From assembly GCA_003354055.1 (NCBI GenBank), contig PIVQ01000060.1, positions 1-19,845 on the forward strand: a stretch of DNA of 19,845 bases. The letters are read 5' to 3'. A program made the translations under genes and the position numbers. Source of the stretch: Desulfobacteraceae bacterium (lineage in GTDB: Bacteria > Desulfobacterota > Desulfobacteria > Desulfobacterales > Desulfobacteraceae). The notes below the pieces were generated by a model. It was not told where the DNA came from. It saw only the letters and a program-made list of their open reading frames with translations, and did not search any database. Below are positions 6,500 to 19,779 of this stretch, piece after piece; positions within the stretch are counted from its first letter, which is position 1; the number at the start of each line of letters is the position of its first letter.

Positions 6500-7132
6500 T
6501 CAGAAATTCAGGGCCGGAACCAAAGTGGCCAGTACTTTTTTTGCATAGCCGTCCAGGTCTTCGAACAAAACCCCGAACCGGGTCTGGTCATTCTCACGGG
6601 TGGTGGTTCTGACCTCTCCTTTAAGGGTGAGGTTGTCAAACTGGCCATAGGGCAGGCGGATGGTAATGGGGGTTGTTTTGCAGCAGTCAAGTTCCGGACA
6701 GTCTTCCACCAGTATGAGGCAGCCGTTCTTATTGATGTTGACGATGATGCCTGGCAACTCATGGGCATCCAGGGTCAGTTTGGCGGGTAAAAAGCAGTCT
6801 ACCCGTTTTTTGGCCCGGATATTACAGGATTTCACATCTTCTGGATATTCCAGGAAAATCAGGAAATCCGGATTCCGGATGGTCCTGATGATATGGGTTT
6901 TGAACCCGAACACGTCATTGGACAGAATATACTTTACCGACAGGTGTTCGCCAGCCCCAAGTTGGCTTTTTTTCCAGTTTTGTTCAGACATCTGGACAAT
7001 CAAATATTTGCCCACCTGCATGCCGATCAACTCCCCGGACACCGCCCGTTCCGGATCTTCGGGCGCAAGCTGGAGCGCGGTTCCCAATTCAATAAACAAT
7101 CGCTGGCTTCGGTTGACATCTGCTGCGTTCAT
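6500..7132 (-). CDS. YcgR-like PilZ-domain protein, candidate c-di-GMP receptor
   Basis: This is a 210-residue protein. ATG 7132-7130 was chosen because AGGA lies 6 bases upstream and it begins 7 bases after the sugar transferase stop; the open frame runs on to 7336 but only as a shadow of the upstream gene. Residues 15-100 look like the YcgR/flagellar-brake N-terminal beta domain. Residues 105-205 are a PilZ domain with R106-x3-R110 ('RAKKR') and the second c-di-GMP motif as N132-I-N134-K-N-G137. Known PilZ receptors use (D/N)-x-S-x-x-G, so the serine is replaced by asparagine while the rest is kept. Binding is likely but should be tested. The tight coupling to an exopolysaccharide-initiating sugar transferase suggests that it tunes polysaccharide output, or motility, when c-di-GMP rises. 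Confidence 0.8.
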
Positions 7133-7139
7133 AATGGTC

Positions 7140-8483
7140 CTATCGGCCGCCCCGTCTGAATAAGACAATTTTAATGGTCTCAAAGACGATGAGCAGCTCA
7201 AGAAAGATGGACAGATTATTGATATAGTACAGGTCATACCTGAGTTTTTCCACCGCGTCACCCAGAGAGGCTCCGTAAGGATACATGACCTGAGCCCACC
7301 CCGTGATTCCGGGCTTAATGGCATGGCGTTCCGCATAATAAGGCGTTACTTTGGAGATCTGGTCCACAAATTCAGGCCGTTCAGGCCTGGGACCGATAAA
7401 ACTCATATCCCCCTTGAGGACATTGATCAGCTGGGGCAGTTCATCAATCCGGGTTTTCCTTATAAATGTCCCGAACCGCGTCACCCTGGGATCGTTTTCC
7501 ACGGCCCATGACGCACCGGTTTTATTTTCAGAATTCTGTGCCATGGACCTGAATTTATAGATGGTAAATACTTTCCCGTTCAATCCCACTCGCTGTTGAA
7601 AATAAAAGACCGGGCCCTTCGAATCCAGTTTTATCATCAGGGCAACAATGGGGGAAAAGGGAAGGCAGATCCCCAGGAGAACGGATGCAAAAATCAAATC
7701 CAGAATTTTCTTCAGGGACCGGATAAAGGGGGTAATAAGAAACCCGCTGCTCTGGACCAGCCAGGAGGGATTGATATGTTCAACCGGTATCTTACCGGTC
7801 ATGAGCTCAAAAAAACTGGGATAGTCCAGAATTTTAACCCCCATGAGTTTGCAGGTGACCAGCTTGGCTGCCGTCAGGTTGCCCCGCCGTTCGGTTAGGG
7901 CAATCACAATGGCTCTGGCATGGGTTTCCTTGGCAATTTCAACAATCTGCTCGATATCACCCAGGATTTTTGAATCCGGCACGGTAACCGGGTCAATGGG
8001 GGTTTTAATGTAGCCTGCCAGCTCGTATTTCCCAGGGGACTCTTTGATCAGGCTTTCCACATTCTCAGCCGTTGCCCCGGTGCCGATGACAATGAGTTTT
8101 TCAGCAAACATCAGTGCATTGTTTGATTTATGGAATATGTTCTGCCATCCGTTTTGAAAAATGAAAAACATGAGACTTGTTTCCAAAACCTCCGGAAACG
8201 CATTCACATGGCCTCTGGGCAGGACAAGGATGAATATCAGCGTAAACACTTGGGCCAGGATAGATCTGAGCAAGCGCTCTTTAAAGCTCCAGCGTTCCGG
8301 CAGATAAACCTCGCACAGGAATGAAAACACCAGGGCCAAAGGAATGAAGTAAAGACTCCAGACCGGCATGGCAGCAGGTTTGATACCGGCCACCAGCATC
8401 AGCACCACAATACCGGCCAGACAATCCCCTGCCAGAAGAATGATTTTATGTCTAACCAGACTGCCTTTTGCTAGAAGTCCCAC
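7140..8483 (-). CDS. Polyprenyl-phosphate sugar-1-phosphate transferase (exopolysaccharide initiation)
   Basis: This 447-residue inner-membrane enzyme starts with GTG 8483-8481, with AGGCGG just upstream. Residues 10-120 give about four membrane segments. Residues 127-225 form a Rossmann-like domain with 'LIVIGTGATAENV' (CoA_binding_3 type), and a further membrane-entering helix lies at 258-285. Residues 285-447 are the catalytic Bac_transf domain with 'QQRVGLNGKVFTIYKFRSM', the catalytic pair Asp347-Glu348 in 'TRIDELPQL', 'GPRPERPEF' and 'KPGITGWAQV'. It transfers a sugar-1-phosphate from a nucleotide sugar to undecaprenyl phosphate, the first step of a repeat unit. The C-terminal 'YPYGASLGDAVEKLRYDLYY' closely resembles the sugar transferases associated with PEP-CTERM/exosortase loci. 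No exosortase or glycosyltransferase cluster is present here, so the donor sugar and final polymer are unknown. Confidence 0.93.
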   Translation of the reverse strand: MGLLAKGSLVRHKIILLAGDCLAGIVVLMLVAGIKPAAMPVWSLYFIPLALVFSFLCEVYLPERWSFKERLLRSILAQVFTLIFILVLPRGHVNAFPEVLETSLMFFIFQNGWQNIFHKSNNALMFAEKLIVIGTGATAENVESLIKESPGKYELAGYIKTPIDPVTVPDSKILGDIEQIVEIAKETHARAIVIALTERRGNLTAAKLVTCKLMGVKILDYPSFFELMTGKIPVEHINPSWLVQSSGFLITPFIRSLKKILDLIFASVLLGICLPFSPIVALMIKLDSKGPVFYFQQRVGLNGKVFTIYKFRSMAQNSENKTGASWAVENDPRVTRFGTFIRKTRIDELPQLINVLKGDMSFIGPRPERPEFVDQISKVTPYYAERHAIKPGITGWAQVMYPYGASLGDAVEKLRYDLYYINNLSIFLELLIVFETIKIVLFRRGGR

Positions 8484-9137: not shown

Positions 9138-9183
9138 GTGCATATTGAAAATTTCAGTGCAGTTTAGCGCTTGTAGTGCTTTT

Positions 9184-9210
9184 GCTGTTCTCGCTGTTCT
9201 CGCTGTTTTA
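9184..9210 (+). repeat. Short tandem repeat of a 9-base unit (three copies)
   Basis: GCTGTTCTC occurs at 9184-9192 and 9193-9201, and a degenerate third copy GCTGTTTTA follows at 9202-9210. The array lies in the leader between the ABM-fold gene and the MscS-like gene. It could vary in copy number through slippage and change leader length; no function can be read from it. Confidence 0.6.
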
Positions 9211-9220
9211 TGGTATGTTG

Positions 9221-9255
9221 GGCCACTTGGTCGTAGGGCCGCAGGCCAACTGGCC
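9221..9255 (+). terminator. Imperfect inverted repeat, possible terminator or attenuator
   Basis: GGCCACTTGG (9221-9230) can pair with CCAACTGGCC (9246-9255) with one mismatch, leaving a 15-base loop. It is followed by a T-rich run (ACATTTTCT). The stem is GC-rich but the loop is large and the T tract is broken, so termination would be partial at best. It sits 118 bases after the ABM-fold stop and 31 bases before the MscS-like GTG, where it could end the first transcript or attenuate the second. Confidence 0.3.
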
Positions 9256-9286
9256 ACATTTTCTATTCGATTTAAAAGGAGAATTC

Positions 9287-10993
9287 GTGAATATAAAGCT
9301 GAACATTCTGATTGCTGTTCTGGTATTGACCTTCACTGCGCCCGGGTTTGGCGGTCAGGATGACGAAGGCACGTCCGCCGTAATATCTTCCCAACCTGTT
9401 GCAAAGAGTCTGTCCTTCGGAGTTGAGGCGGAAAAGGAAAAAGCCACCCTTGCGATGCTTCAATCCATTGTCCGGCTCAAGAATAATTTGAAACAGCGGA
9501 TGACTGAGAAAAAGCAACTCATTAACCAGGCCGATTCTGAAACGGAAAAAACCTATCTGGCTGCGGAACTCAAGGAGATGGACGAGCAACTGGCCGGTGC
9601 CGTAGTGGATTTTGAGAGGATAGCCACCGGGGTGGATGTGGGGCTGTTTGCGGCAAAAAAAGCAGAGCATTTTAACTGGCAAAATGAGCTGGTCTCATTG
9701 ATAGAGCCCGGGATCATGGAGCTCAAGCGGCTCACCGTAAAGGCCAGGCACAAGACCAAACTCAAGGATGCGTTGTCTGCCTATCAGAGTCTGGTGCCTG
9801 TGGCGTTCAAGGCCCGGACACGGATTGAAATATTGATCAGCAGGGCAGAAGATCCTGATTTGAAAAAATCCCTGGAAGGGTTGCTGCCGGAGTACCGTGG
9901 GGTGGAAAGCCAGATTAAAAATAAGCTGGACCTGGTCCGGCTGCAATTGGAGGAAATTCAACGGGAAGAGACCTCCATCATTGACAGCTCCAGTAAATCG
10001 GTTAAGAATTTTTTCAAAACCAGGGGGCTGTTTCTCTTTATTGCTCTGGTTGTCTGTATCGGTGTTGTTTTCTTTCTGCGGTTCTTTTACAGGACGTTTA
10101 TAAGACTGGTGCCTGGCTATAAGGCCAGGTACAGGCCCTTTCATATCCGGGTCCTGGAACTGGTATACAGGACTTTGACCCTGATCGTTACCCTGCTGGC
10201 CGTTATCCTGGTATTTTATGCCTTTGAGGACTGGGTACTGCTATCGCTTGCCATTATTTTTCTCATGGGTATTGCCTGGGCTGCCAAGAACACCCTGCCC
10301 AAGTTTGTGCACCAGAGCAGGCTCATGCTTAATATCGGGGCAGTGAGGGAAGGGGAGCGCCTGATATATGACGGGATTCCCTGGCTGGTCAAGCATATCA
10401 ATGTCTATACCATTCTGGACAACCCCACGCTGGGTATCCAGCTTCGGATTCCCATTGAAGACCTCATGGATAAAACCTCCAGAACATTTCATCCGTCCGA
10501 GCCCTGGTTTCCCTGTCGTAAAAACGACTGGGTAATCCTTGCGGACGGTACCCGGGGCGGGGTGATCAGCCTCTCCCATGAAACCGTGGAGCTGGTCCGG
10601 CGGGGTGGGGCTCGCAAGACCTATCAGACATCTGATTTTCTGGCATTGTCTCCCTTGAACCTTTCGGTAAATTTCAGGCTGAAAATACCCTTTGGTATCT
10701 CCTATGCCCATCAAAAGGATGTTACAGGCGTCATCCCTAAGCTTTTGTCTGAGCATATTTCCGAGCAGATAGAAGCCGAAGGGTATACGGATGACTTGCT
10801 GAATCTGCGGGTTGAGTTTGCCGAGGCTGCGGCTTCATCCCTGGATCTTGTGGTGATTGCCGACTTCAAAGGAGATACGGCACCCTTATACAATAGATTG
10901 TCACGGGCCATTCAGCGTTGGTGTGTGGATGCGGCGACACACAATGGGTGGGATATTCCCTTTCCTCAGCTTACAATTCACCGTGAATCCTGA
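9287..10993 (+). CDS. MscS-family mechanosensitive channel with long periplasmic coiled-coil domain
   Basis: This is a 568-residue protein. GTG 9287 is placed 5 bases after AAAGGAG and gives a clear signal peptide (residues 1-23). An in-frame ATG at 9176 lacks a ribosome site and lies in the repeat region. Residues 45-240 are charged and helical, probably a periplasmic coiled coil. Three membrane segments follow (about 248-266, 294-313 and 316-333). The pore-helix region is degenerate: 'MGIAWAAKN' in place of the glycine/alanine-rich MscS pore. The beta domain follows (350-395, 'REGERLIYDGIPWLVKHI'), and residues 405-460 look like a second, similar beta domain ('KNDWVILADGTRGGVISLS'). The protein ends with the family's vestibule and beta-barrel tail 'GWDIPFPQLTIH'. 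The expected role is release of solutes on hypo-osmotic shock, but the atypical pore makes a sensory or regulatory role possible. Confidence 0.82.
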   Translation: MNIKLNILIAVLVLTFTAPGFGGQDDEGTSAVISSQPVAKSLSFGVEAEKEKATLAMLQSIVRLKNNLKQRMTEKKQLINQADSETEKTYLAAELKEMDEQLAGAVVDFERIATGVDVGLFAAKKAEHFNWQNELVSLIEPGIMELKRLTVKARHKTKLKDALSAYQSLVPVAFKARTRIEILISRAEDPDLKKSLEGLLPEYRGVESQIKNKLDLVRLQLEEIQREETSIIDSSSKSVKNFFKTRGLFLFIALVVCIGVVFFLRFFYRTFIRLVPGYKARYRPFHIRVLELVYRTLTLIVTLLAVILVFYAFEDWVLLSLAIIFLMGIAWAAKNTLPKFVHQSRLMLNIGAVREGERLIYDGIPWLVKHINVYTILDNPTLGIQLRIPIEDLMDKTSRTFHPSEPWFPCRKNDWVILADGTRGGVISLSHETVELVRRGGARKTYQTSDFLALSPLNLSVNFRLKIPFGISYAHQKDVTGVIPKLLSEHISEQIEAEGYTDDLLNLRVEFAEAAASSLDLVVIADFKGDTAPLYNRLSRAIQRWCVDAATHNGWDIPFPQLTIHRES

Positions 10994-11225: not shown

Positions 11226-13193
11226 ATGAATTTGAACTCCCATCTTCTGGGCGATCTTTTGGTCGGCATGGGTACGATTTCAAAAGGGCAGCTGGAAGAG
11301 GCTCTGGCATTTCAACAGGGATTTGTAGAGGATGCTCTGCTGGAAGCAGATCTGGACCGGACAGAGCTCATCTCCAGGGGAAGGCGGGCAAGCAGTCCTG
11401 TTCCGAAGCTGGGGACAATTCTGGTGGATAAAGGGTATTTAACCGAAGACCAACTGACCCCTGCCCTGGAGGTTCAACACCAGCGGGCAACCGAACTCAG
11501 CCGGCTGGACAGCCATAAACTGGCCACTGCCCTTGAGGTGGGGTTTATCATCAACTCCACCATCAACCTGGTGGATGTGCTTTCCCTGATCATGAAATAC
11601 GCCAATATTGTCACGGATTCCGTTGCCTCCACCCTGATGCTTCTGGATGAAAAAACCGGGGAACTTGTTTTTTCGGTTCCTACAGGGCCCAATGCAGACC
11701 AGCTTGAGGATATCCGGATTCCCCCAGGGAAAGGGGTTGCCGGATGGGTCGCGGAAAACGAGCAGTATGTGGTGGTGGAAGATACGGAAAAAGATACACG
11801 GTTTTACAATGAAGTGGATGCCATGACCGGTATTCAGACCAAGTCCCTCCTCTGCGTGCCCATGAAATCCAAACGGAAGCTCATCGGTGTGCTGGAAGTG
11901 ATCAATAAAAAGAACGGGGGCAGCTTTTCAGAGGACGATGCCCTGTTGCTGAGTATCTTTTCCCACCATGCCGCCATTGCCATTGAAAATGCCCTGCTGT
12001 TCAACTCCATGCAGGCCCGGATGGAAAAGGAGAAGCTCATTGAGCAGAAGGTTGCGGAATCTGAACGGCTTCGTTCCATCGGTACCCTGGCCGGCGGGAT
12101 TGCCCATGATTTCAACAATATTTTGAGTGCTATTATCGGGTATACGGAGCTGGCCCAGATGGAATCCGATAAGGACAGCCGTCCCTATTCCAACCTGTCA
12201 AAGGTGCTGGGCGCCTCCAACCGGGCCCGGGATCTCATCTCCCAGATTCTTACCTTCAGCCGTCAGTCTGAAAAGATACCAAAACCCATGCAGGTCAACC
12301 TTATCGTAAGAGAGGCATTAAGACTCCTGCGGGCAGCCCTGCCCAAAACCATTGAGATGAGGGAAGACATTGACTGCCGCTCGGTGATCATGGGGGATGC
12401 AACTCAGATCCACCAGGTGATCATGAACCTGTGTACCAATGCAGCCCATGCCATGGAAAAGGAGGGAGGCCCCCTGACTGTGTCGCTAAGCGAAGTCATT
12501 GTTGAACCGGAAACGGACGAATTGTCCATGCCGACGCTGGAACCAGGGCCCTATTTGAAACTGCAGGTAAAAGATTCAGGCAAGGGCATGCCCGCCTATG
12601 TAATGGAGCGGATTTTCGATCCTTTTTTTACCACCAAAGAAAAGGGACGGGGAACCGGGATGGGACTGGCTGTTGTCCACGGCATCGTAAAAAATCATGG
12701 GGGGGATATCCAGGTCGTAAGTGAGCCGGATAAAGGATCGATTTTTGAAATTTTCTTCCCGGTGATTGAGCGGGCCCCCGAACCCATTGCAAAGAAAGCT
12801 TCGGAGGCCGCCGCCCCAGGTGGAATCGAACATATCCTGATCGTGGATGATGAAATCATGCTGGTGGATGTGGCTAAAAGCCGGCTCAACTCCCTGGGAT
12901 ACAGGGTCACCATTGAGACAGACAGCATCCAGGCTCTGGAGCGGTTCAGACAGAATCCTGACGGCTATGACCTGGTGATTACGGATATATCCATGCCGGT
13001 GATGTCCGGCGATAAAATGGCCGGGGAGATCTTGGCCATCCGGCCCAATATTCCCATCATCCTCACCACAGGCTTCAGTGTGGAAATGTCGGAAGAGCTT
13101 GCCTACGAAATGGGGTTTAAGGGATTTTTAACCAAACCCATGAAGTTCAATGATCTTGCCCTGGCCGTGCGAAAGGCCCTTGACCAGGTTTAA
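11226..13193 (+). CDS. Hybrid sensor histidine kinase: MshEN-like, GAF, HisKA, HATPase, receiver
   Basis: This 655-residue cytoplasmic protein has no membrane segment. Residues 8-30 and 61-84 each fit the MshEN repeat LG-x2-L-x5-I/L-x4-L-x3-L-x2-Q ('LGDLLVGMGTISKGQLEEAL' and 'LGTILVDKGYLTEDQLTPAL'). They are separated by about 30 residues instead of the short spacer in c-di-GMP-binding MshEN domains. A GAF domain covers about 97-255 and a coiled linker follows. HisKA has the phospho-acceptor His294 in 'GGIAHDFNNIL'. The ATPase domain shows 'NLCTNAAHAM', 'DSGKGMP' and 'GTGMGLAVVHGIV'. Residues 535-655 are a receiver with Asp587 ('TDISMP') and the conserved lysine in 'LTKPM'. It likely integrates a small-molecule signal, possibly c-di-GMP, into a phosphorelay; no histidine phosphotransfer protein is seen. 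The start has a modest AGGGG site, and the 232-base upstream gap shows no confident promoter. Confidence 0.92.
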   Translation: MNLNSHLLGDLLVGMGTISKGQLEEALAFQQGFVEDALLEADLDRTELISRGRRASSPVPKLGTILVDKGYLTEDQLTPALEVQHQRATELSRLDSHKLATALEVGFIINSTINLVDVLSLIMKYANIVTDSVASTLMLLDEKTGELVFSVPTGPNADQLEDIRIPPGKGVAGWVAENEQYVVVEDTEKDTRFYNEVDAMTGIQTKSLLCVPMKSKRKLIGVLEVINKKNGGSFSEDDALLLSIFSHHAAIAIENALLFNSMQARMEKEKLIEQKVAESERLRSIGTLAGGIAHDFNNILSAIIGYTELAQMESDKDSRPYSNLSKVLGASNRARDLISQILTFSRQSEKIPKPMQVNLIVREALRLLRAALPKTIEMREDIDCRSVIMGDATQIHQVIMNLCTNAAHAMEKEGGPLTVSLSEVIVEPETDELSMPTLEPGPYLKLQVKDSGKGMPAYVMERIFDPFFTTKEKGRGTGMGLAVVHGIVKNHGGDIQVVSEPDKGSIFEIFFPVIERAPEPIAKKASEAAAPGGIEHILIVDDEIMLVDVAKSRLNSLGYRVTIETDSIQALERFRQNPDGYDLVITDISMPVMSGDKMAGEILAIRPNIPIILTTGFSVEMSEELAYEMGFKGFLTKPMKFNDLALAVRKALDQV

Positions 13194-15463: not shown

Positions 15464-15492
15464 TTGATTTATAGCTATAAAACACCTATAGA
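15464..15492 (+). promoter_or_regulatory. Candidate promoter of the HDOD kinase operon with an embedded 14-bp palindrome
   Basis: TTGATT (15464-15469), a 17-base spacer and TATAGA (15487-15492) match sigma-70 boxes at four of six positions each with ideal spacing. A perfect palindrome, TTTATAGCTATAAA (15468-15481), overlaps the -35 box and spacer, where a dimeric regulator could block or recruit polymerase. Because the region also drives the divergent rubrerythrin-selO pair, one regulator could control both. No known regulator consensus was matched. Confidence 0.38.
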
Positions 15493-15531
15493 AACTATAC
15501 ACAAAAAGCAACCGGATTTCTCTAATTGACC

Positions 15532-17760
15532 ATGGCAATGGAACGCATATTTGAAAAAGTAAGAACATCCAACCATCTGCCCCAGCTCCCCCAGGTGATG
15601 CTGCAGCTGGTAAAAGCCTGTGGTAATGAAAAAACCAATATTGATCAATTGACCCGGATCATATCTACAGATCCCTCTTTAACGTCAAAACTGCTTCAGA
15701 TCATAGCCTCCCCCTATATAAACCTGCCCAAACAGGTGAACACCATCAAAACCGCCGTGGTTTATCTGGGACTGGATACCATCCGGAACATTGCCATCAG
15801 TTCTTCGGCCATGCATTTTTTTAAAATGTCCGATGTGCTGCCGGATTTTGATATTACCCGGTTCTGGTACCACTCCTATAAATGCGGGGTTCTGGCCCGG
15901 CAAATCGCGATTGAAGAAGGCCAGGCCAATCCTGATGAATTCTTTCTGGCCGGCCTGCTCCACGATATCGGCAGTCTGGTGCTCATGCGGACCTTTCCCA
16001 AAGCCTACGGATCTGTTCTGGCTTCCGTTGATTCGGGAATCCCCCTGGCAGATGCGGAAATTGACCGGTTTAATGTGGATACCCCCCAGGTCAGCGCCTG
16101 GTTGTTCAACCAATGGCATTTGAATCCCATCACCTCTGATGCTGTTCTGTTTATGAACGAGCCTTTGGACCGGATCCAGGGAGAACTTGCCCATGTGAAA
16201 ATTCTCTATATGGCCAATATCCTGTCCTGTGAAGAGCCTATGGTCCGTATGGATGATATGCTGACGTTGACCGACATCCCGGAGATGCGTCTGGGCCAGG
16301 TTATCACAGAGGCCGAAGATGAAGTGGCTAAAATGGCCAGGAGCCTCGGGGTCAATATAAAGAAAAGCGATAACAAAGAGGCCGACCAGGCCGTTGCCCT
16401 GGAAATAAAGGACCTTTCCCTGTTCTACGGCACTCTGGACACACTTCTGGAAGCACGGGACCTGCCCAAGGTACTGGATACCGTTCAAAAGGGCTTAGAA
16501 ATTATCTTTCACGTTCCCAGGGTCTTTTTCTTTCTTCTGGACAGAGAAAAAAATTATCTCGAAGGTACCTGCCATCCGGATGACCGGCATCATAATATTG
16601 TACGAAGCATTGCCGTGCCCATGGACAACTCCGCAAGTCTTTTGGTGAAATCGGTAAACAAGGCGGCTGTTCAAACAAGTTTTAACAGGACTAACCCGGC
16701 GGTATCAGATACCCAGATAATCCGGCTTCTTGCAACCCGGGACCTGTATTGCATCCCCATTGTATCCCGGGGCAAGGCCATGGGGGTCATGGTTTTGGGT
16801 GTGGACCGGACCATCGCCGCAGGGCTTGACCGGAATCAGGGGCTGCTCACCCTCTTTTCCAGACAGGCCGGCATCTGCATGGAAAACATTGAATTTCACG
16901 GGTCATATGCTAGGGATATCAATGAAAAAAAGATGGAAGCCTATGCCGTCCTGACCGACAAGGTGATCCATGAAATCAATAACCCCATTGCCATTATTAA
17001 AAATTATCTGGACAGCCTGAAGCTTAAGCTCCCGGAAAATCATCCGGTCCAGGAGGAACTTACCGTGGTCGGAGAGGAGATGCTCCGGGTCTCCTCTCTT
17101 CTGGAAGGTCTGTTCAGTTATTCAAAACCAAAGATCGGGGGCCTTGACGTCATTGATATCAACCGGATCTGCGGCCGGGTTCTTACGGTGCTGAAAAAAT
17201 CTATTCTTCTGCCCAGGCAGATTACGGCCAGGACCAGTTTTGACAAAGGGATACCAGAGGTGAAAATGGATGGAAACGGCTTAAAACAGGTGTTGATCAA
17301 CCTGGTTAAAAATGCAGCCGAAGCCATGAAAAACGGAGGAGAGATCCACGTGACGACTCGGCTTTTGCCCGGATCGGCCAAGGTGCTCATTGACGAGAAA
17401 AAGAAAATTCCAGGCATAATGGAGATCACGATCCGGGATACCGGCCCGGGAATTCCGGCCGGAATTAAAGACCGGCTGTTCGAACCCTATAACTCAACCA
17501 AGAAAAACGGTAAAAATTCCGGTCTGGGACTTGCCATTGTCCATTCCATTGTCAAGGAGATGAACGGCAGGATCACCTGTGAGAGTCAGGAGGGGACAGG
17601 CACAAGTTTCTCCGTTTATCTGCCACTGACCCCCGCGGTAAAATCAGCGGGAGCGTCGGGAGCAGCGGGAGCCACGGGTAATTCAGGGCCGGCGACAGGA
17701 CACGTGGGAAAATCAACGCCATCCGGAAGACCGGCAAGACTGGAGACCAGCCATGGCTAA
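15532..17760 (+). CDS. HDOD-GAF sensor histidine kinase
   Basis: This is a 742-residue soluble protein. ATG 15532 is the most likely start, though the ribosome site is weak and TTG 15526 and ATG 15538 are alternatives. Residues 15-215 are an HDOD domain with an intact HD pair (His144-Asp145 in 'LLHDIG') and the 'LPQLPQVMLQLV' opening. Residues 285-455 form a GAF domain. A histidine kinase core follows, with phospho-acceptor His480 ('VIHEINNPIAII'), N box 'NLVKNAAEAM', 'DTGPGIP' and 'GLGLAIVHSIV'. There is no receiver or membrane segment. The last 45 residues are a low-complexity Gly/Ala/Ser/Thr tail. HDOD proteins take part in c-di-GMP, motility and stress signalling. The gene overlaps the MshEN gene by 8 bases; no partner response regulator is present, so the downstream proteins may be its partners. 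Confidence 0.92.
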   Translation: MAMERIFEKVRTSNHLPQLPQVMLQLVKACGNEKTNIDQLTRIISTDPSLTSKLLQIIASPYINLPKQVNTIKTAVVYLGLDTIRNIAISSSAMHFFKMSDVLPDFDITRFWYHSYKCGVLARQIAIEEGQANPDEFFLAGLLHDIGSLVLMRTFPKAYGSVLASVDSGIPLADAEIDRFNVDTPQVSAWLFNQWHLNPITSDAVLFMNEPLDRIQGELAHVKILYMANILSCEEPMVRMDDMLTLTDIPEMRLGQVITEAEDEVAKMARSLGVNIKKSDNKEADQAVALEIKDLSLFYGTLDTLLEARDLPKVLDTVQKGLEIIFHVPRVFFFLLDREKNYLEGTCHPDDRHHNIVRSIAVPMDNSASLLVKSVNKAAVQTSFNRTNPAVSDTQIIRLLATRDLYCIPIVSRGKAMGVMVLGVDRTIAAGLDRNQGLLTLFSRQAGICMENIEFHGSYARDINEKKMEAYAVLTDKVIHEINNPIAIIKNYLDSLKLKLPENHPVQEELTVVGEEMLRVSSLLEGLFSYSKPKIGGLDVIDINRICGRVLTVLKKSILLPRQITARTSFDKGIPEVKMDGNGLKQVLINLVKNAAEAMKNGGEIHVTTRLLPGSAKVLIDEKKKIPGIMEITIRDTGPGIPAGIKDRLFEPYNSTKKNGKNSGLGLAIVHSIVKEMNGRITCESQEGTGTSFSVYLPLTPAVKSAGASGAAGATGNSGPATGHVGKSTPSGRPARLETSHG

Positions 17761-18730
17761 AACCGGTGATATAATGGTAGGGGAAGGCCTTGTCAGCCCC
17801 GGGGATGTAAAACAGGTCCTGGCCATCCAGGAAAAAAATAAGACATCCCTGACCCGGAACCGGGGTCAGCTTTTCGGATCGGTTCTCTGCGATTTGAATC
17901 TGGTCACCCCTTTGGATGCGTATTGCGCTCTGGACAAACATGAAAAACTGGTGTCTGTCAGCGATTTTCTTGTCCGGAAAAACATTGTGACCCAATCCAG
18001 GATTGACCGGGCCAAGGCAAGGGCAGAAGCCAAGGGTATTCCCTTTATCTCATATCTCCTTGAAGAACGGATTGTTCCCAAGGCTTTGCTCCAGCAGATG
18101 ATTTTTGATCTTTTCCACATTCCGTTCCGGTCTGTCTCTGATGTCGTGTTTGATAAAACCAGCCGGGGTAAATTATCCGGGATCCTCAACAAAACCAAAG
18201 CCTGTGAACACAAAATTATTCCCCTGCAGCTCACGGGCAATACCCTTTTAATGGGGATTACAGATCCGGACAACTTAATAATTTTAAGGGATCTTGATGC
18301 CAAGTTTCCCCAATACAGGTTTACACCGGTGTTTATTCCCTTTTCCGGATTTACCTGGTTTTATAAATTGCTGTACAAAGAAAACTTACGCTCAACCAAT
18401 ACTTCTCCTGTGGATCTGTCCCTGCTCATGAAATTTTCCGTTTCCATCACAGATCCGGACCGGGACAAAAAGGAAATCCTCTCCCTGTATGACAGTTACG
18501 AACAGGTCCGCATGCAAAGCCTGCATCAGGAAAAAAAACAGTCTGACGATCCGGTAGAAGACCGGGACCAGCCTGAGCGGTCAGCACAATTTTTTACCTT
18601 TATCCGCCAGAACCATGCCCGGATCACCGAAGCGTATAATTGCGCAAGCGTTGAATTTTCATTGAAAAAGACCGACGACCGGCTGATGGTCATGGCCCTG
18701 CCCCAAAAGGAGACCTCATGGCAAAAGTAA
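17753..18730 (+). CDS. Stand-alone MshEN/GspE N-terminal-domain protein
   Basis: This 325-residue soluble protein lacks the ATPase domain of the type II secretion/type IV pilus ATPases. Its first 125 residues contain up to four MshEN-like repeats. The clearest is 3-26 ('TGDIMVGEGLVSPGDVKQVL' then 'AIQ'); more degenerate copies lie near 38-62, 68-95 and 96-122, ending 'FDLFHIPFRSV'. Residues 158-210 match the following GspE-N segment ('LLMGITDPDNLIILRDL'). Residues 210-325 are charged and unassigned. MshEN domains of secretion ATPases bind c-di-GMP; here the arginine before the first motif is lysine and 'LG' is 'TG', so binding is plausible but not certain. ATG 17753 overlaps the kinase stop (shared ATGGCTAA), and the 3' end overlaps the ATPase gene by 13 bases, so the three proteins are probably made together. 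Confidence 0.8.
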   Translation: MAKTGDIMVGEGLVSPGDVKQVLAIQEKNKTSLTRNRGQLFGSVLCDLNLVTPLDAYCALDKHEKLVSVSDFLVRKNIVTQSRIDRAKARAEAKGIPFISYLLEERIVPKALLQQMIFDLFHIPFRSVSDVVFDKTSRGKLSGILNKTKACEHKIIPLQLTGNTLLMGITDPDNLIILRDLDAKFPQYRFTPVFIPFSGFTWFYKLLYKENLRSTNTSPVDLSLLMKFSVSITDPDRDKKEILSLYDSYEQVRMQSLHQEKKQSDDPVEDRDQPERSAQFFTFIRQNHARITEAYNCASVEFSLKKTDDRLMVMALPQKETSWQK

Positions 18731-19779
18731 TCACTGTTGCGTCGGGAAAAGGCGGGGTGGGAAAAACCAGCATCAGCCTGAATCTCTCCCTGGCCCTGGC
18801 CTCTGCCGGATTTAGGGTCTGTCTCTTTGATGCCGACCTGGGCCTTGCCAATGTGAATATCCTTACGGGTCTCTATCCCGAGTATGGGCTTTTCGAGGTG
18901 ATTGAAGGCAGCAGGACCCTGAAAGATATAATGATCCGGGATTTTAACGGCATTGATATTATCCCGGGCAGTTCAGGAGTGGAAAAGCTGGCCGATCTGA
19001 ATTCAGTCCAGGCCGGACGGCTGATCAATTCCTTTCTGGAGTTGTCATCCTATGATTATTTTATTCTGGATACTTCAGCCGGTATCTCAGCCCAGGTGCT
19101 GTCCTTTTGCCGGGCCTCCCAAGAGATGATCCTGGTGGCCACGCCCGAACCCACCTCCCTCACCGATGCCTATTCCCTGCTGAAGGTGATGTCCAGGGGC
19201 AAGACCATGCCAAGGATCCGGGTGGTCATCAACCAGGTTCAGTCGGCTGCTGCTGCCAAGAAGGCCTATGCCAAGCTGAAAAAGACGGTTCTCAAGTTTT
19301 TGTCAATCAAGATCTCACCCCTGGGGATCCTGGCCCGGGACCCGAATGTTCCCATTGCCGTGGTTTCCCAGATTCCTTTTTTCATGCTTTTCCCGGATAC
19401 CCAGGCATCCCGGTGTATCCGGTCCATTGCCCTGAAACTGGTCAAGGATCCGGGACAGGACATACCAATGGAAGTGTTCTGGGATCAATGTTTGGATCTG
19501 CTGACCCAGGGAAGGCCTGCGCCCAAGGCAACCGACACGCCACTGGTATCGGGCCCCGAAGACCGTGACGCCCTGGAAACCCGCCTGGCAGGTATTGAAG
19601 ACAAAATATCACGCCTGCTGGAGGAGGTGGTTGAAATCAAATCCCTGCTTATCCGGCCCCGGATAGTCCCGCAAGCAGAGTCGGATGTTAAAACGTCCCG
19701 GGCTGGTGAAAATAAAAAGCCTTCCCAGCCCCGTCCCCTTGAACTGAACTTTGAAGCCTGGGTGGCGAACCAGGGCTAA
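18718..19779 (+). CDS. FlhG/MinD-like P-loop ATPase with C-terminal coiled-coil extension
   Basis: This 353-residue protein is a ParA/MinD-superfamily ATPase. It shows the deviant Walker A 'GKGGVGKTS' (Lys11 and Lys16), Walker A' 'DADLGLANVN' (Asp38, Asp40), Walker B 'FILDTSAGI' (Asp118) and 'ATPEPTSLTDAYSLLK', closest to FlhG/FleN, which sets flagellar number and position. It begins directly at 'MAKVITVASG', so the N-terminal activation helix of true FlhG (the DQAxxLR-type motif) is absent. Residues 275-353 are an extra tail with a predicted coiled coil ('LETRLAGIEDKISRLLEEVV') and a conserved-looking end 'LELNFEAWV'. No FlhF or flagellar gene lies nearby. It probably forms an ATP-dependent dimer that positions something, perhaps with the MshEN protein encoded immediately upstream. 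Confidence 0.88.
   Translation: MAKVITVASGKGGVGKTSISLNLSLALASAGFRVCLFDADLGLANVNILTGLYPEYGLFEVIEGSRTLKDIMIRDFNGIDIIPGSSGVEKLADLNSVQAGRLINSFLELSSYDYFILDTSAGISAQVLSFCRASQEMILVATPEPTSLTDAYSLLKVMSRGKTMPRIRVVINQVQSAAAAKKAYAKLKKTVLKFLSIKISPLGILARDPNVPIAVVSQIPFFMLFPDTQASRCIRSIALKLVKDPGQDIPMEVFWDQCLDLLTQGRPAPKATDTPLVSGPEDRDALETRLAGIEDKISRLLEEVVEIKSLLIRPRIVPQAESDVKTSRAGENKKPSQPRPLELNFEAWVANQG

Follow-up and report, generated by a model that had tools for sequence, protein, structure and literature searches.

A conserved three-gene module of an HDOD histidine kinase, an MshEN protein without motor domain and an ATPase of the FlhG type

The trio locus and its conservation

The window analysed here, a stretch of 19,845 nucleotides, carries three consecutive genes on its forward strand, encoding a histidine kinase (K), a protein with an MshEN domain (M), and an ATPase of the MinD family (F). 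The genes and the features found in their products are the following:

15532..17760, forward strand: K, an HDOD-GAF-HisKA-HATPase histidine kinase of 742 aa (open frame and Pfam)
15577..16164, forward strand: HDOD domain of K (Pfam, E 8.7e-51)
17753..18730, forward strand: M, an MshEN protein without a T2SSE motor domain, 325 aa (open frame and Pfam)
17759..17941, forward strand: MshEN-like pair of half-sites of M, residues 3-63 (column counts over 31 M sequences)
17948..18379, forward strand: MshEN fold of M, residues 66-209
18458..18712, forward strand: MCT, the C-terminal domain of M, residues 236-320, which co-occurs with an adjacent F
18718..19779, forward strand: F, an FlhG/FleN-type MinD-family ATPase of 353 aa (open frame, PDB match and structure model)
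19558..19653, forward strand: coiled-coil-like helix of F, residues 281-312 (structure model m2ae9c6bb8403)
19744..19761, forward strand: LNFEAW peptide at the C terminus of F, the trio motif being LDFE[S/A]W (sequence and model)

The start used for K is 15532, whereas the list of open reading frames begins it at a TTG at 15526. K and M overlap by 8 bases and M and F by 13, and the frames of the window thus confirm the overlaps reported in a preliminary description of this DNA. That description additionally proposed that the overlaps keep the three products in a fixed ratio. However, this is not a general feature, since the overlap varies between loci: in the related trios described below, the gap ranges from -8 to +66 bases between K and M and from -13 to +16 bases between M and F (script-chosen starts; omitting L004, where K is cut short, L023, with a run-together frame, and L030, with an uncertain start). 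The overlap is therefore not conserved, while the spacing stays short.

The domains assigned in the preliminary description (an HDOD-GAF kinase, an MshEN protein, and an FlhG-type ATPase) are upheld by Pfam and PDB matches. K holds an HDOD domain (residues 16-211), a GAF_3 domain (311-452; 28.2 bits against a cut-off of 27) and a HATPase_c domain (580-700), and its HisKA match falls under the cut-off (23.2 against 26.9 bits). The H, N, and G boxes that mark a histidine kinase are all present. K was aligned from 27 of 31 loci, the window being one of them and the remaining ones incomplete; in this alignment the phospho-acceptor His480 of the H-box (16969-16971) and Asn594 of the N-box are found in 27/27 sequences, and the glycines of G1 and G2 in 26/26. 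The HDIG motif of the HDOD domain keeps its histidine in all 27 and its aspartate in 25. The protein is predicted to be soluble, with a top 19-residue hydropathy of 1.38. No response regulator is encoded among K, M, and F in the window, and the earlier picture of a kinase without such a partner holds within the three genes.

A profile of the M family built from 30 rows (A1) was scanned against 84,980 species genomes. It returned 41 stretches that fit the pattern, 30 of them encoding an M relative, and in all 30 loci the genes follow the order K-M-F on one strand. Since order and strand are the same throughout, the arrangement is more than chance and the trio is a genuine conserved three-gene module. 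Conservation of gene order had been proposed earlier as a check on this locus, and the answer is that the trio is not limited to one genome. Contig ends truncate F in L002 and K in L003 and L027, and K of L030 is split over two frames. The host records belong to Desulfobacula, Desulfobacter, Desulfotignum, Desulfospira, and Desulfobacterium, or are unplaced MAGs.

The genes flanking the trio are mostly unlike between loci, except that some close relatives retain, upstream, both a rubrerythrin-like gene and a gene that we take to be YdiU/SelO-like. Neither pilus nor secretion genes were recognised adjoining the trio or other M-F pairs, and no flagellar genes were recognised beside the trio in the window or the related loci. 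In G003, G015, and G016, which are trio genomes, there is a further M-F pair (L061, L063, and L062, respectively). In the genus of Desulfobacter latus, on the other hand, a trio-type M-F pair is present in only 8 of 19 genomes, and the trio is therefore often absent too.

M and its ATPase neighbour

The Pfam match of M is MshEN at residues 145-203 (24.0 bits against a cut-off of 23.1), and a Pfam scan gave no match to T2SSE (PF00437), which agrees with its earlier reading as a GspE N-terminal module without the ATPase. Its fold matches the MshEN/GspE docking folds. The C-terminal domain, here called MCT, is weakly similar to NF041621 (MXAN_5187_C), under the cut-off. A search with A1 across the phylum found 67 of 395 genomes at E<=1e-6, many of these matches being confined, by their matched range, to the MshEN portion of ATPases of the PilB type; across the order, 35 of 242 genomes matched at E<=1e-12. 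The regions surrounding the stronger matches were taken and their genes typed, which revealed that M adjoins F in three forms. Long M (772-1034 aa among the typed loci) consists of MshEN repeats, a full T2SSE motor, and then an MCT like that of the window M, with F next to it. Short M has the same layout minus the motor, and was found with F in 13 non-trio loci. The third form is the trio. Judged by this layout, M appears to be a PilB/GspE-type ATPase minus its motor domain: it shares the N-terminal fold of PilB, GspE, and MshE, and its long relatives still hold the complete T2SSE, but M itself lacks the motor and carries MCT. Loss of the motor would be simpler than its insertion, since in ordinary motors too MshEN is followed by T2SSE. 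In the tree of F, the best motor history takes four changes, and a single change is not rejected.

MCT and F go together. Of the M-type loci, 46 have over 500 bases of room on the downstream side; both are present in 32 of these, MCT alone in 3, F alone in none, and neither in 11. F is thus adjacent in 32 of the 35 loci having MCT and in 0 of the 11 lacking it, these last being MshEN-T2SSE proteins all without MCT and without an F neighbour. A first count (29, 4, 12, and 1) was changed by reassigning L098, L143, and L156, after their broken or extended frames had been viewed as separate pieces. The loci with MCT and no F are L137, near a contig end, L151, and L168. The link is a pattern among related loci, not an independent test. 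The MCT-less proteins of L103-L107 are PilB-like ATPases of about 670 aa with MshEN repeats and no adjoining F gene; in L103 and L104 they are encoded directly 3' of apparent flagellar genes, presumably fliF-fliG-fliI.

F belongs to the ParA/CbiA/AAA_31 P-loop families of Pfam. In the window it carries the MinD-type P-loop fold with a KGGVGKT signature. Its closest solved relative is FleN (PDB, E 2e-57), in accordance with the flagellar-number type first assigned to it, and its structure model best matches FleN and FlhG chains, including those of structures titled FleQ-FleN complexes in the PDB. F is like FlhG, FleN, and YlxH in its P-loop fold and in sequence (41% over 250 columns). It differs from them in several respects. 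In the tree, the trio F form one clade (100/100), whereas nine ordinary FlhG rows from trio genomes form another (100/100); of these nine, only the Desulfospira row was located within its flagellar cluster, the neighbours there being genes that we take to be flagellar. The tree is rooted inside the M-linked F by the long MinD branch, and does not show a single M-linked clade opposed to FlhG. The Desulfospira genome of this flagellar FlhG also encodes MinD. The Desulfospira flagellar FlhG has an N-terminal extension that starts with DQAKGLR, a motif of the FlhF-activating DQAxxLR type; extension and motif are absent from F, which begins MAKVITVASGKGG. F is, moreover, encoded with M instead of flhF, and the trio F add a coiled coil and an LDFE tail. 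A comparable coiled-coil stretch was seen by eye in relatives of F.

At the C terminus of F, after a low-confidence linker, the structure model predicts a short helix at residues 345-351, which holds the tail peptide. The strict form LDFE[S/A]W occurs in 27 of 31 trio F, and the four others comprise two at contig ends, one reading FDFESW, and D. latus, where the tail is lost. A looser form is carried by 12 of 13 F next to a short M and 15 of 18 next to a long M, and is absent from all 9 ordinary FlhG and from the one MinD compared. When one long-M F was used as query, L[DN]F[ED] was found near the end in 67 of the best 120 of 7,093 relatives, the others among these 120 showing tail variants, early ends, or fused domains. 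The F of L027 carries two tandem copies of the LDFESW tail at its C terminus. The ATPase signature is less constant: KGG[VA]GKT is found in 27 of 31 trio F, and in the other four (L024-L027) EDG replaces KGG, so that the signature lysine is gone while the C-terminal tail is retained. In an 18-row alignment with the EDG and degenerate rows excluded, KGGVGKT and DAD are invariant. The Walker A of F is also damaged in five loci linked to mraZ (L140, L143, L144, L160, and L165), four of them with a loose tail. Because such F keep their tails, the tail can persist where the ATPase signature is lost, and since four trio F are without the signature lysine, ATP switching may not be universal among them.

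Gene neighbourhoods, natural fusions and alternative readings

The neighbourhoods of the 44 typed non-trio loci are varied, and their context allows for more than one target, considering the PATAN-type regulators, the sigma-54 activator, and the mraZ division cluster found there. HDOD genes occur next to M-F in three arrangements other than K: as stand-alone proteins after F in 10 loci, as REC-HK-HDOD in 2, and as a histidine kinase plus HDOD-REC in 1. With 12-17 HDOD matches per genome in each of four genomes, such adjacency would be unlikely by chance. The M-F-linked HDODs fall into three clades of a tree with a weak backbone. In 8 M-F loci the gene upstream of M encodes a REC-DUF4388 protein, one of them verified by Pfam; DUF4388 is presumably the PATAN domain.

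The division cluster raises the possibility that the M-F pair serves cell division or envelope growth, with F acting as a MinD-like protein at the division site and M as its anchor. M is divergent from mraZ-rsmH-ftsI in 10 of the 44 non-trio loci and adjoins ftsK in 2 (the identities of these neighbours being assumed from their sequence), and F is itself a member of the MinD family. However, none of the 30 trio loci lies in either context, the Walker A of F is damaged in the five mraZ-linked loci named above, F is missing altogether in L151, and the one genome examined for it (that of L065) has a separate MinD, encoded beside a gene that we take to be MinC-like. A division role is thus rather unlikely, even if it fares slightly better than the other alternatives. 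The M lying divergently to mraZ and the genes for division and wall is a long one in L140, L143, L144, L151, L160, and L165, and in those of these loci that have F, it looks like a nucleotide switch that is seemingly becoming a scaffold.

Fusions provide a second view of the partners of F. The query was the F of a long-M locus, and the best 120 of 7,093 relatives were inspected. Two of these, P0155 and P0156, are fusions of F to HDOD. Both are partial proteins, the two coming from two clusters, and their HDOD groups with that of K with an SH-aLRT of 89, below the 95 starred by the tool, which limits the apparent kinship to K. In a BLAST comparison of 45 HDODs, the nine best matches of the P0155/P0156 HDOD are the nine K sequences tested. 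Another eight of the 120 (P0197, P0202, P0205, P0208, P0223, P0233, P0237, and P0240) carry a C-terminal PilZ domain, two in the case of P0202; five were scanned and all five were confirmed. In those inspected by eye, the fused PilZ apparently has RxxxR and DxSxxG, motifs named in an excerpt of PMC5013675.

In D. latus, M and F form a single frame of 603 aa, in which one deletion took MCT and another took the tail of F, while two other genomes of the genus (G645 and G646) retain both. If MCT and the tail dock together, neither would be needed any longer in a single chain of M and F. The fusion, known from one draft genome, may instead reflect the decay of an unneeded locus, given that only 8 of 19 genomes of the genus have a trio-type M-F pair. 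Taken as sequence evidence, the F-HDOD and M-F fusions lend support to a physical system, and the joining of F to HDOD, PilZ, and M in turn suggests that F is the hub.

The PilZ fusions bear also on the reading first offered for this locus, namely that M acts as a receptor for c-di-GMP, whose level the module translates into where a surface machine sits. According to an excerpt of PMC5013675, the MshEN site for c-di-GMP is composed of two 24-residue half-sites joined by a 5-residue link, with the pattern RLG...G...L...L..Q. M has the MshEN fold, and its half-site I is largely intact: G3, G10, L21, and Q24 are found in 31/31 sequences and K or R at position 1 in 30/31, the substitutions being K at R1 (28/31) and T at L2 (26/31). 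Half-site II, on the contrary, is broken, with N replacing G10 and Q24 lost in 31/31, and R1 lost in 30/31. In the c-di-GMP-motif model NF053729, which has its cut-off at 38 bits, the score of the window M is 28.9; of six M relatives, five are also under the cut-off and one barely reaches it (38.3), whereas three long M are far above, at 138-161 bits. With half-site II broken throughout and the motif score below the cut-off, canonical direct binding of c-di-GMP by M appears unlikely, even though its scaffold is under constraint. The HDOD could be the sensor instead of M: in the excerpted part of PMC6543031, SadB, consisting of HDOD plus YbaK, binds c-di-GMP, and the HDOD of K may do so by analogy. 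All in all, the conversion of c-di-GMP level into machine position by M as receptor is improbable. The case also illustrates that an MshEN domain in the name of a protein need not mean c-di-GMP binding.

Other proteins of the window are of interest from the point of view of c-di-GMP. The hybrid histidine kinase at 11226-13193 (forward strand), which contains GAF and receiver domains, has two N-terminal MshEN half-sites, which keep 6 and 7 of 7 key positions when K is counted as R and are separated by a link of 30 residues; L001 and L004 also have such a kinase upstream of their trio. A YcgR-like PilZNR-PilZ protein (6500-7336, reverse strand), also encoded close to the trio of L004 and that of L005, is likely a c-di-GMP effector. 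The 605-aa membrane protein at 9176-10993 (forward strand) resembles by eye a large channel of the MscS type, and matches no Pfam family above cut-off.

Finally, it is comparably improbable that F works as a FleN-like antiactivator, governing with M and K a sigma-54 activator and hence the expression of a machine and not its position: FleN is its nearest solved relative, FleQ-FleN complexes included, and a GAF-sigma54 activator gene directly precedes long M and F in L062 (12122-13678) and L063 (12910-14466), but this is the case in just 2 of the 44 typed non-trio loci, both in genomes that also carry Desulfobacterium trios (L028 and L029), and the trio genes of the window include neither a sigma-54 activator nor a response regulator. 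The layout of L062 and L063 recalls the pairing of FleQ with FleN.

A possible switch for surface machines

The reading favoured here, with a confidence slightly short of even, is that the FlhG-type F is the hub of a switch that places or times a machine of the type IV pilus or T2SS type, with M as its predicted adaptor and K as its predicted input. In this mechanism F would cycle between an ATP-bound dimer and a free state, as FleN and FlhG do, and its tail or coiled coil would bind the MCT of M. The MshEN fold of M resembles the part of GspE and PilB that docks on the base of the machine, so M might either bring F to that base or block the real motor there. The HDOD of K would touch F, conveying the state of the kinase or of GAF.

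The control of a pilus- or secretion-type machine is an inference. Motor genes were searched for in 18 trio genomes out of the 30, of which 17 have PilB and all 18 have PilT above cut-off. Among 14 named control genomes, PilB was found in none and PilT in five above cut-off. As none of the controls is a trio-negative genome of the order, these genes are not specific to the trio, and their presence permits the pilus-machine reading and does not show it. PATAN regulators bind PilB1 in Synechocystis, according to excerpts of PMC12288463 and PMC7690835, and this contact, together with the REC-DUF4388 genes before M in 8 M-F loci, would by analogy favour the same reading. The window trio differs from the Synechocystis system in that an HDOD kinase takes that place and there is no PATAN gene. 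Weighing against the reading are the absence of recognised pilus or secretion genes beside M-F and, for the switch as a whole, the loci L151 and L168, where MCT occurs without F.

Other known systems use similar parts. In excerpts of PMC11656802 and PMC6543031, MshEN, PilZ, HDOD, or FleN-type components govern pili or flagella in PilB-PilZ-FimX and in SadB/FleQ-FleN; as described there, however, none has an operon that brings an HDOD kinase together with an MshEN protein lacking the motor and an ATPase of the FlhG type. No module of these three components was found among the matches listed in the open-licence literature.

It is possible, though doubtful, that the trio represents a new class of positioning switch, where a pilus or secretion motor, stripped of its motor domain, serves as adaptor with MCT docked on the LDFE tail of F, and where F, as a dedicated FlhG-type ATPase, accepts interchangeable sensors (an HDOD kinase, a stand-alone HDOD, a PilZ domain, or a PATAN regulator) and couples them to a surface machine. 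ATPases of the ParA/MinD family position flagella, chemosensory arrays, and chromosomes, and to our knowledge little is known of their ties to pili or secretion motors. Here, a protein of a motor family and an FlhG-type ATPase are repeatedly co-encoded in one bacterial order, with the motor domain present or absent, and some relatives of F carry sensors fused directly to the ATPase. The proposed pairing of MCT with the LDFE tail offers a defined interaction for testing, for which the natural fusions can serve as controls, and cultured hosts exist in Desulfospira joergensenii and Desulfobacter latus. If the proposed switch is true, one hub would link many signals to the place and time at which a cell-surface machine acts.
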